Positions 21,096 to 28,453 of a stretch of 64,000 nt of DNA are shown here, piece by piece; position 1 is the first letter of the stretch; each line of letters opens with the position of its first letter. Source of the stretch: Natrarchaeobaculum aegyptiacum. GTDB taxonomy: Archaea > Halobacteriota > Halobacteria > Halobacteriales > Natrialbaceae. The DNA is taken from contig NZ_CP019893.1 in NCBI RefSeq assembly GCF_002156705.1, positions 558,001-622,000 of the forward strand, in the 5' to 3' direction. The notes beneath the pieces were generated by a model that searched no databases, had not been told where the DNA came from, and saw nothing but the letters and a program-made list of their open reading frames with translations. The translations under genes and the position numbers were made by a program.

Positions 21096-22502
21096 CTAGG
21101 ACTCCCCGGAGGCAACATTCCCATCACGGTGGACGGTACTCGGGTCCGTGCGCTGTTCGTTGGGACTTTCCCTCGCGGGAGAGCGTGGTGACTCCGACCA
21201 TTCATGATCGTCCCACTTGAACCGCACGGGCCGTGCCATCGGCCTGACTTCTTGCTCTGTGTGCCGTTGACGAGACACGTCGTGTCTCGTTCGCCAATCA
21301 GAACTCCCCGAGTTCTGATGACGCTTCAGGAACGTTTTTGACGCCGTGAGGTCGGCGTGTCCTTCAAACCCACACGGACAGGTGAGTGTGTCCTGATCCC
21401 GTGTTGTCCGATCTGCTGAACCGCACTGCGGACACTCTTGACTGGTCCACGCTTCCGACCGAACCTCGACCGAGATATCGTATTCCTCGGCCGTGCAGGC
21501 CAATCGCTCGGTGAACTGCTTGAACGCCCAGAAGTTGTGCGTCTTCGCATTCGTTTCGACCGACCAGTGTGTTTCCAGCACGTCGGTCAAGCCACCGATA
21601 TACACGGTATCCACACCTTCGTCGTACAACCGTTCGATTAGGTCACGACACAGGGCTTCTTGTGCGTGATCCCGTCGACGGGTTCGCTTGCGGTACAGTC
21701 GCCGGATACGCTTGCTACTGTATCGCCCCTCCTCGAGTTTGGACTGTAGCCGGGCGATCTCTGCGGTCGTTTCACGGAATCGCTGGAACAGCTTGCGACC
21801 TTCGTACAGATATTGCTCGCCGGTCGTTGTAGTACAGGCAACGAGATTGTTCGCACCAATGTCCAGAGCGGCCGTCTCGTCGGCCAGTGGAGTTGCCTGA
21901 TCATCTGGAGAAACCGTCACAGGCTGCGATGCTCTAAACGTGCTATCAATCTCGTCATACCACAATTCTAACCGGCCTTGATCATCGTAGTTAGGCCAGT
22001 TCGGGTCGCCAACGATTTCTAGACGGAGACGGCTTTTCGGGCTATTGTGGCTGTCCCGGAGTTGTTCTCCGACGACCATCTCAACTCGAGAGCGGTCACC
22101 CCATTCGACGGTGTATGCGTCCTTTCGGACGACGCCTTTGAGCACACGTCCGTCGTCTTCGTTGCCACGGAAGCCTGGGGGTTCTGGGTGTTTCGTAACT
22201 GACGTATTCGACTCATCGTAGTACGCTTTCTTGTTCTCGAAGAACCCGCGCCACGCTTCACTGTTAGCCCGGCGGACAGTCTGAGCAGTGGACGCGGCGA
22301 GAACGGCTTTGTATTTCCCTTCGAGAGCGCCAGTATTGGCGTCCCACACGCCTCCCTCAAAGCCGTCTTCGTCGTTGTAGCGCATAAGGCGCTGATAATT
22401 GATCTCGTTCCAGAGAGCAGCGGAAGCGTCCAACAGATCCCGTAGCACTCGCTCATCGTCGTCGGTGAGCGGTCGCACGGTGAACGTATTGGTACGCTTC
22501 AT
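21096..22502 (-). CDS. tnpB: TnpB, RNA-guided endonuclease-like protein (IS200/IS605 OrfB)
   Basis: 468 residues from the ATG at 22502 ([16 protein letters not shown]); a Met 15 codons upstream is possible. RuvC-I Asp214 is in ALDIGANN, RuvC-III Asp384 in [14 protein letters not shown]. The zinc ribbon has Cys357, Cys360, Cys375 and Cys377 (CPQCGS...LTCPCGF). At the usual RuvC-II glutamate (V-x-E-D-L) this protein reads [10 protein letters not shown], with the next Glu at 310 (VLETHW). The long polar C-terminus ending [10 protein letters not shown] is typical of this haloarchaeal subgroup. Function in guided cleavage is inferred from the family. Confidence 0.92.
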
Positions 22503-22650
22503 CAGCCACTCCAGTATACATTCGCTTCGGTCTTGAACGTCAGCCATCCACGGTGAAAGTGAAACTCATCGCCTGCCTCGTTGGAGACTCACGACCAGCA
22601 GTAACACGAAAGTTTCTCACCAGAGCGTACGCGATTCACTCCCGCCCTGC

Positions 22651-25951: not shown

Positions 25952-26485
25952 CTACTTTCGAACGTGCATCACTCGCTCGTCGAGTACCATCGCCCGCCCG
26001 GACTCGAGTACGACCTGTCCGCGAATCACTCGTGCACTGGTTCGAACGGGCTGGATGGTGGCTGGATCCACCGTCTCGGTGACGCCAACGTCGTCGACCA
26101 GCCAGCCGTACCGCTGGCTCGAACTCTCTGCAGCTGTGCCAGTCGCGTCGCTCCCGACGGCGTCGGCCGTCAGCACGACGAGCGCCGGATCGTCGACACG
26201 CTCGACTGTGCCGGCAGAGAAAACTCGCGGCAGATCCACGACGCGGACCGGCGTTCCGTCGACGGTGACGGTCCCGGCGTTCCACGGGTCGGGGGCCGAC
26301 TCGAGCGGGTCGGCCTCGGTGACGCCGACGACGGCATCGACAGCCGAAAGCGAAATACAGTAGCGGTCGGCTCCGACCGTGAACGCGAGAACCGTCCACC
26401 GGTCGCCAGTCGGAGAGTTGTCAGATTCGTCCGCAGGACCAGACGTCGGACGGCTCGTCATCTCGTCTGCGACTTCGATTGGCAT
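25952..26485 (-). CDS. CheW domain protein
   Basis: 177 residues from the ATG at 26485; a TATA-like GGTATTACG lies about 30 nt upstream. CheW fold: TVLAFTVGADRYCISLSAVD, GVTEADPLES, VDGTPVRVVDLPRVFSAG and the C-terminal VVLESGRAMVLDERV. CheW couples chemoreceptors to CheA; no other chemotaxis gene is in the window, so it may be a stand-alone adaptor. The N-terminal 25 residues are polar. Confidence 0.83.
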   Translation of the reverse strand: MPIEVADEMTSRPTSGPADESDNSPTGDRWTVLAFTVGADRYCISLSAVDAVVGVTEADPLESAPDPWNAGTVTVDGTPVRVVDLPRVFSAGTVERVDDPALVVLTADAVGSDATGTAAESSSQRYGWLVDDVGVTETVDPATIQPVRTSARVIRGQVVLESGRAMVLDERVMHVRK

Positions 26486-26619
26486 TCCGTATACGTGTAT
26501 CGGCTCTCGTAATACCCGATTGACATCTATATCCGGTCGAGCCCGAACTGCGAGGTTCATTCGGTGGCGGACCCCCGATTTCGCTGGTCGGTCGACGCGT
26601 GAACGGTATCAGCTGGTTG

Positions 26620-27639
26620 CTACAGCAGACCGCGGCTCTCGAGGTGATAGTCCAGAATCGGATCGAACGCCTCGAGGTACGTCTCGAGATCGACCGACTC
26701 CACGCCGTCGGTGTGGGAAGCGGCCGCGTCGTACTCGGCGTGCCAGCGTTCGAGAAAGTGCGTTTCCGCGTGACTGTCACGAATCGTGTCGACGACCGGC
26801 TCGACGGTCTCGGGGGTCGGATCGGCCTGTACTGCGCGGAGTTGGTCGAACGAAACGACGCCAGTCTCGAGTGCGTGGACGACGACGCCCGAGACCGGGT
26901 CGCCCTCCTCGAGTTCGCGTTCCCAGGTGACGAGCCAGTTACAGATGCGCGCCAGCCGCTGGGCGTGAGCGACCACCCGCCGAAGCCCCGCGAGTTCGGT
27001 CGCGTCGAACGCGGAGGCGTTGCAGAGGTCCACGGTCGCGTAAAAGCAGATCATCATGTTGTGGACGTCGTAGCGCCAGAGGTCGTCCATCGAGACGATC
27101 CCGAGGTGATCGTCGGCCAGCCCCGCGTAGGTCATCGCGGCAACGATTTGCTCGAGGTCGAACCGGAGAAGGTCGGAAAACTCCTCGTACCGGGGGCTCT
27201 CGGCCAGCCGTTCCTCGGCGGCTTCCCAGACCGACTCGAGGTACCGGATCACGTCGGCATCGACGCCCGCTCGATTCGGATCGGCTGTCGCGTGGTCGAA
27301 CGGAATCTTCGTGGCCTCACGGAAGGTCGCCTCGTCGCCGTGACGTTCGGCGAGGTCGTCGATGGTCGTGACGAACAGCGAGGCGAGTAATTTCGCTTCC
27401 TGGGTCCGTTCTCGTCGACCGTCGTCGACGCAGGAGAGCGTAAACGTCGGAAAGAGGTGAGCGAGCCACTGCCAGAGGTACGGATCGCGATCTCCGACGG
27501 TGGTTTCGTACTCGGCGAGTAGCGGCTGGATCGATTCGGGCAACGATTCCTCGCGGACGATCTCGACGAGGTCGGCACCTTCGTCGACGTCGAACTGTTG
27601 ATGTCGGCTCACTGCCGTAACGATTACCGATGGTAACAT
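26620..27639 (-). CDS. class I terpene synthase-like protein
   Basis: 339 residues, all-helical by composition. Two motifs of class I terpenoid cyclases are present in the right order and spacing: DDLAE at 94-98 (DDxxD/E, first metal site) and N234-T238-E242 in CNWLVTWERE (NxxxS/TxxxE, second metal site). Arg189 (LWRYD) lies 45 residues before Asn234, where bacterial enzymes have the pyrophosphate-sensing Arg, and Arg-Trp appears downstream in FLERWH where an RY pair is common. These enzymes ionise prenyl diphosphates with three Mg2+ ions. Product unknown. The alternatives are an inactive relative or an unrelated helical protein. No prenyl-diphosphate synthase is adjacent. Confidence 0.62.
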   Translation of the reverse strand: MLPSVIVTAVSRHQQFDVDEGADLVEIVREESLPESIQPLLAEYETTVGDRDPYLWQWLAHLFPTFTLSCVDDGRRERTQEAKLLASLFVTTIDDLAERHGDEATFREATKIPFDHATADPNRAGVDADVIRYLESVWEAAEERLAESPRYEEFSDLLRFDLEQIVAAMTYAGLADDHLGIVSMDDLWRYDVHNMMICFYATVDLCNASAFDATELAGLRRVVAHAQRLARICNWLVTWERELEEGDPVSGVVVHALETGVVSFDQLRAVQADPTPETVEPVVDTIRDSHAETHFLERWHAEYDAAASHTDGVESVDLETYLEAFDPILDYHLESRGLL

Positions 27640-27666: not shown

Positions 27667-27676
27667 ATAAAAATAT
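27667..27676. promoter_or_regulatory. AT-rich element between the terpene-synthase-like and MBL genes
   Basis: ATAAAAATAT is the most AT-rich spot in the divergent gap. Read on the minus strand it lies 28-37 nt before the ATG at 27639, a good TATA position. On the plus strand it would start a transcript near 27700, leaving a ~70-nt leader for the MBL gene. Confidence 0.45.
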
Positions 27677-27772: not shown

Positions 27773-28453
27773 ATGTCCGAGACTGAACGAGCGAACGTTC
27801 ACGCACTCCCGATCTCGATCGAGTACGGCGGACGACCGCTCACGATCACCCCGGTCGTCCTCGAGACAGATCGCGGCCTCGTCCTCGTCGACGTCGGGCC
27901 GGAGGGAGCTATCGATGCCATCGCGAGCCACGTCGAAGACCTCGGTTACGACCTCCAGGACGTCTGGCTGGTGCTCTGTACCCACCACGACGGCGATCAC
28001 GTGGCCGGACTCGCCGAACTGCTCGAGCGAACTGACGCGATCGTCGCCGCTCACGAGGCGGAGGCACCCTACGTTCGTGGCGACGAGGAGCCGATCAAAG
28101 GGGACGGGGACCGCTATTCACCCGTCCGCGTGGACCTCGAGCTCGCCGACGGCGTCCGGATTCCGACGCTGGACGGCCCGGTCGAACTGGTCGAGACGCC
28201 GGGACACTCCCCCGGCCACGTCTCGCTATACAAACCCTCGTCGTCACTCCTGATCGCCGGCGACGCCCTCGTCGCTGACGGCGACGAACCGCTGTCGGGA
28301 CCGAAACCGGAGTATACGCCCGACGAGGAACGAGCACTCGAGTCGGTCGGGAGACTGGCCGACCTCGAGATCGATCAGGTCGTCTGTTATCACGGCGGCC
28401 ACGTCGAGGCCGGGAGCGACCGCATTCGCGAGATTGCGGCGACTCGAGACTGA
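27773..28453 (+). CDS. MBL fold metallo-hydrolase
   Basis: 226 residues from the ATG at 27773; a TTG 26 codons upstream is possible but less attractive. Metal-binding motif CTHHDGDHVAG (HxHxDH variant THHDGDH), then ETPGHSPGHVSLY, IAGDALVAD and YHGGHVEAG. Glyoxalase II-like hydrolase of unknown substrate. Divergent from the terpene-synthase-like gene and ends against the palindrome at 28487. Confidence 0.9.
   Translation: MSETERANVHALPISIEYGGRPLTITPVVLETDRGLVLVDVGPEGAIDAIASHVEDLGYDLQDVWLVLCTHHDGDHVAGLAELLERTDAIVAAHEAEAPYVRGDEEPIKGDGDRYSPVRVDLELADGVRIPTLDGPVELVETPGHSPGHVSLYKPSSSLLIAGDALVADGDEPLSGPKPEYTPDEERALESVGRLADLEIDQVVCYHGGHVEAGSDRIREIAATRD

Follow-up and report, generated by a model that had tools for sequence, protein, structure and literature searches.

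The terpene-synthase-like gene P0001 lies in the complete, 3.93 Mb genome of Natrarchaeobaculum aegyptiacum, within a stretch of 64,000 nucleotides, called the window below. Features of the locus, and related synthase genes of other haloarchaea, are collected in Table 1. The 339-residue reading frame given in a preliminary description of this DNA is indeed open; its orientation, which that description did not state, is on the minus strand. The position of the TATA-like element suggests that the promoter is probably of the leaderless archaeal type. The CheW gene is probably an incidental neighbor. The product of P0001 matched no family in NCBIfam, and the plasmid copies of the P0001 family in haloarchaeal plasmid records are all annotated as "hypothetical protein" at NCBI. 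Elsewhere in the window, an open frame on the minus strand (21096-22547) resembles, as judged by eye, an IS-type RNA-guided TnpB/OrfB protein.

Table 1. Features of the P0001 locus (first nine rows, window coordinates) and canonical PF19086 synthase genes of other haloarchaeal loci.
Feature	Location	Strand	Remarks
Terpene-synthase-like gene P0001	26620..27639	minus	open frame, 339 aa; ATG at 27639
Aspartate-rich metal motif D94-D95-x-x-E98	27346..27360	minus	C-terminal end of helix 73-98
NSE-type metal triad N234-W-x-x-T238-W-x-R241-E242	26914..26940	minus	in helix 213-244
Codon of Arg189, claimed pyrophosphate sensor	27073..27075	minus	unconserved; one residue off canonical sensor
Codon of invariant Arg220	26980..26982	minus	45/45 and methanogens; N234 helix
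Codon of invariant Arg231	26947..26949	minus	45/45 and methanogens; one turn before N234, same helix
TATA-like element ATATTTTTAT	27667..27676	minus	about 30 bases 5' of P0001 ATG; read from sequence
CheW gene	25952..26560	minus	same strand, 59 bp downstream of P0001; Pfam
Metallo-beta-lactamase-fold hydrolase gene	27773..28453	plus	divergent from P0001; Pfam
Canonical PF19086 synthase	L020 1357-2799 (G389)		
Canonical PF19086 synthase	L021 1348-2784 (G244)		
Canonical PF19086 synthase	L023 805-2238 (G288)		
Canonical PF19086 synthases, two	L140 5403-6824 and 7563-8954		Actinarchaeum halophilum plasmid
Canonical PF19086 synthase	L141 5542-6981		Halocatena marina plasmid

Profile searches of archaeal genomes showed that the P0001 family is distributed patchily within the order, where it was found in 119 of 392 genomes, representing 42 of the 95 genera. 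In a phylum-wide sample of 295 genomes, eleven more carry it; these represent three families and lie outside the order. Methyl-coenzyme M reductase is present in four of the six genomes tested outside the order, which identifies those four as methanogens. Two methanogen genomes of one genus match the family profile with E-values of 1e-99 and another genus with 1e-86, and in one of the four methanogens the copy is degenerate and lacks the motifs. Full-length identity between P0001 and the strong methanogen copies is 31%. A search with a methanogen member matched haloarchaeal plasmids only. Viral spread of the family was considered and set aside, as a search of viral contigs with one peptide pattern gave no match. 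In three distant members outside Halobacteria (L169 9108-10085 in G531, L170 3022-3738 in G523 and L168 9195-9968 in G486), one of the metal motifs, or both, has been lost; these members are possibly pseudogenes or non-catalytic paralogues.

Both metal motifs named in the preliminary description are present at the residues it gave, DDLAE at 94-98 and N234/T238/E242, with D94 and N234 exactly 140 residues apart. Conservation was counted in an alignment of 45 haloarchaeal family members. In the aspartate motif, D95 is found in all 45 sequences, D94 in 42 (with Asn in the other three), and a Glu or Asp at residue 98 in all 45. In the triad, N234 and E242 are invariant and T238 is replaced by Ser in a single sequence, and on the same helix W235 and W239 are invariant and R241 is found in 43 of 45. 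Methanogen members retain the motifs as DDIAD or DDVSD and NWxxTWERE. Conservation of both motifs in homologues, the lack of which the preliminary description had named as a refutation, holds in haloarchaea and methanogens.

A check proposed in the preliminary description, a search with the Pfam profile Terpene_syn_C_2 (PF19086), places P0001 just over the threshold, with a marginal 24.6 bits against a gathering cut-off of 23.7. Individually, 32 of the 45 relatives match PF19086 (E<=0.01), the best family member found in the genome search reaches an E-value of 1.6e-8, and the methanogen members score below the cut-off. Searches of PDB sequences with P0001 alone and with the family profile gave no meaningful match. 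In profile-profile comparisons with hhalign, ten sequences from PF19086-type loci ranked first (E=0.003-0.005 over 224 columns, with DD aligned on DD and N/T/E on N/S/E), followed by prenyl synthases (E 0.026, 58 columns) and squalene/phytoene synthases (E 0.96, 21 columns); these E-values come from single comparisons with a probability of only about 7-11%, and are usable as a ranking only.

An AlphaFold2 model of P0001, built with 16 homologues, is all-helical and confident (pLDDT 90.3, pTM 0.88). Foldseek returned 72 PDB matches at E<=0.001, and the best 50 of the 72 are all isoprenoid-synthase folds. The matches listed, among them the terpene synthases for aristolochene and T-muurolol and VenA, have query-normalized TM scores of 0.45-0.59, and prenyl synthases rank alongside terpene synthases. 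The predicted structure thus agrees with the class I alpha fold proposed earlier; assignment to the isoprenoid-synthase fold class is well supported by the model, and the structural distance to known members is large. A control model of a canonical haloarchaeal terpene synthase, made from a four-sequence alignment, reached a pLDDT of 46 and was left out of the comparison.

The preliminary description had also argued that co-occurrence of the motifs by chance is unlikely. They are indeed rare in composition shuffles of P0001: DDxx[DE] and Nxxx[ST]xxxE spaced 125-155 residues apart occur in 0.17% of shuffles, and together with an Arg 45-47 residues before the Asn in 0.03%. However, the two-motif pattern is also present in 3 of 555 unrelated neighbor genes (at least 200 aa, taken from the neighborhoods), which implies several chance occurrences in a genome of some 4000 genes, and the argument from motif rarity alone is therefore weak at proteome scale. 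It is because the motifs are conserved, and are joined by the Pfam match and the predicted fold, that they are significant. The chance occurrences in unrelated genes are what favors the explanation that P0001 is an unrelated helical protein with fortuitous motifs, but conservation in at least 45 sequences, the 32 Pfam matches and a confident fold of the isoprenoid-synthase class largely refute this explanation, and we regard it as highly improbable.

The metal motifs of class I enzymes are DDxxD/E and NSE/DTE, and typically three more basic residues bind the diphosphate (PMC10563020). Here the P0001 family departs from the canonical pattern. In the ten PF19086-type sequences the sensor R192 is invariant, 46 residues before N238, and a C-terminal Arg is invariant and its Tyr partner nearly so. 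Arg189 of P0001, put forward earlier as the pyrophosphate sensor, does lie 45 residues before Asn234, but in the profile alignment the canonical R192 falls on W188, one residue away. Nor is Arg189 conserved, with Arg in 16 of the 45 haloarchaeal members, Thr in nine, Gln in five and others including Ala, Val, Tyr and Glu in the remainder, and with no Arg at this position in the aligned methanogen homologues. Residue 188 varies as well (Trp in 12, Arg in 6, Glu in 6, and others, in the same 45 members). On these grounds we rejected Arg189 as the sensor. Class I enzymes have a break in helix G at the effector triad. In the P0001 model DSSP assigns helices 184-189 and 191-194, with a break at residue 190, but the effector residues are unconserved. 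The C-terminal Arg-Tyr pair has no counterpart in the profile alignment, where the P0001 family ends earlier. The "full motif set" of the preliminary description is thus not upheld, with the sensor Arg unconserved and the RY pair missing. The family has arginines of its own. Arg220 and Arg231 are candidate diphosphate ligands, and by helix periodicity would lie near the face carrying N234, T238 and E242; R51 is near-invariant.

Comparison with bacterial PF19086 enzymes of the pentalenene or selinadiene synthase type shows both shared and divergent features. The P0001 family resembles them in its all-alpha predicted fold and size of about 330 aa, in the distance of 140 residues from DDxx(D/E) to Nxxx(S/T)xx(K/R)E, with R241 as the Lys/Arg that precedes the Glu, and perhaps in a predicted helix break upstream of the triad helix. 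It differs in overall sequence (about 13% identity in the profile alignment), in having NW where the bacterial enzymes have ND, and in its lack of a conserved sensor Arg and of the RY pair. R51, W56, W58, D204, R220, R231, W235, W239, D247, W299 and D317 are invariant or near-invariant residues that belong to the P0001 family itself. Squalene/phytoene synthases (PF00494) have the same superfamily fold and act on isoprenoid substrates, as P0001 would, but the P0001 family lacks their paired DxxxD motifs and has no profile similarity to them.

Trans-isoprenyl diphosphate synthases (FPPS/GGPPS, PF00348) have the superfamily fold and a high Foldseek rank, as high as that of terpene synthases, and this raises the alternative that P0001 has the fold and metal site of a class I enzyme but is not a cyclase, and consumes a prenyl diphosphate to give an acyclic prenol or a prenylated acceptor. 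Altered handling of the diphosphate is also suggested by the absence of the sensor Arg and RY pair and the presence of other invariant arginines. At one methanogen locus, moreover, the family member is divergent from a gene for a DUF92 membrane protein (L162 10325-11719). The plant member of DUF92 is a phytyl-phosphate kinase, and this neighbor is a possible isoprenoid link, although it was seen at this locus only. Against a non-cyclase stands the NxxxTxxRE motif, which is that of terpene synthases and occupies the place of the second DDxxD of PF00348 enzymes. We consider this alternative unlikely, and prefer to read P0001 as a terpene synthase.

A few haloarchaea hold a separate, canonical PF19086 synthase (Halocatena, Actinarchaeum, and genomes G389, G244, G397 and G288), and in G389 a P0001-family copy and a canonical synthase lie about 2 kb apart. 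These proteins are annotated as "SRPBCC family protein" or "hypothetical protein". They share the Pfam family and the metal motifs with the P0001 family but match PF19086 far more strongly (E 1e-39 to 1e-51), and several carry an SRPBCC-like part at the N terminus and are encoded next to a polyprenyl synthetase gene. Among bacteria, the relatives of the canonical synthases are mainly enzymes of Streptomyces. The canonical synthases and their polyprenyl synthetase neighbors are likely to be genuine bacterial-type terpene gene pairs. The synthases appear to have been acquired, and they are not of the P0001 family.

The gene neighborhoods were compared in sixty stretches of 12-20 kb. Their recurrent theme is regulation and not a biosynthetic cluster. 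A gene for a FilR1-type HTH protein lies directly downstream on the same strand in several genera of four families, often overlapping or touching the synthase gene and sometimes followed by a HalOD1 gene. Other families have a bacterio-opsin-activator gene less than 1 kb away, with or without HalOD1. The targets of bacterio-opsin activators include isoprenoid genes, and such neighbors are compatible with a regulated terpenoid enzyme but no proof of one. At L117 (8463-9977, G211), a 505-aa open frame comprises a response-regulator receiver, a HalX domain and a synthase-like domain, and represents either a fusion or two proteins made by way of an internal start. Likeness to a biosynthetic cluster is confined to a few loci. 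A P450-family gene lies within 5 kb in four loci, too few to weigh, and none of the neighborhoods compared has a dedicated prenyl synthase beside a P0001-family gene. The metallo-beta-lactamase-fold gene is the divergent neighbor of most Natrialbaceae copies. An obligate link between the two was rejected, and the pairing is probably positional, because this gene is also found in relatives without the synthase gene.

The recurrent regulators, together with the PAS histidine kinase gene that adjoins the methanogen copy and the receiver and HalX domains that precede the synthase domain in the 505-aa frame, could also point to a sensor or signaling protein, derived from a terpene synthase, that binds prenyl diphosphates and controls the neighboring regulator. 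The strong constraint on the whole metal triad and on the aspartate motif, a constraint with no purpose in a pure sensor, speaks against such a role. Family members without regulator neighbors are also common, and the regulators may merely control expression of the enzyme. We judge a sensor role to be quite improbable.

Taken together, the earlier proposal of a class I terpene synthase is supported by the Pfam match, the predicted fold and both metal motifs; the sensor Arg named in it is not upheld. P0001 is probably a divergent class I (ionization-initiated) terpene synthase, and the members of its family identified to date belong to Halobacteriota. We infer its metals, substrate, cation chemistry, product and arginine roles as follows. 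The reaction would be metal-dependent and use a C15-C25 prenyl diphosphate. D94 and E98 at the end of one helix, and N234, T238 and E242 on another, would bind a trinuclear Mg2+ cluster, which would hold the diphosphate group of the substrate. This prenyl diphosphate, of C15, C20 or C25, would come from the polyprenyl synthases of the cell itself, three of which are encoded in the genome. The metals would then abstract the diphosphate to leave an allylic cation, and its cyclization or quenching would yield a terpene hydrocarbon or alcohol. As the family lacks both a conserved sensor Arg and the RY pair, the diphosphate is probably recognized by the family's own arginines, namely the conserved R220, R231 and R241 and perhaps R51. 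A fuller picture, which we advance tentatively as having a little short of an even chance, is of a class I branch that is old within Halobacteriota, in haloarchaea and methanogens alike, and binds the diphosphate with its own invariant arginines in place of the canonical sensor and RY pair. Under the control of light- or redox-type regulators, such an enzyme would convert C15-C25 lipid precursors into an archaeal terpenoid not yet described.

The enzyme class is known, and the P0001 family falls marginally inside PF19086; in the open-access literature we found no class I terpene synthase of archaea that had been characterized or given a name. Counts of antiSMASH "terpene" clusters normally include carotenoid and squalene genes. 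Two papers report such clusters in archaea. According to a 2023 paper (PMC10105419), halocin and bacterioruberin were the only secondary metabolites to which an archaeal gene cluster had been linked with confidence. The terpene metal-binding signature, as read from sequence, suggests that the archaea carrying it may make a terpene compound as yet unknown. Archaeal secondary metabolism is poorly known, and here a conserved family is present in about 30% of the sampled haloarchaea and in some methanogens. If P0001 works without the usual diphosphate sensor, it would bear on how ionization is triggered in class I enzymes. More broadly, the family bears on whether the terpenoids of archaea, besides carotenoids, squalene and membrane lipids, include further cyclic compounds.
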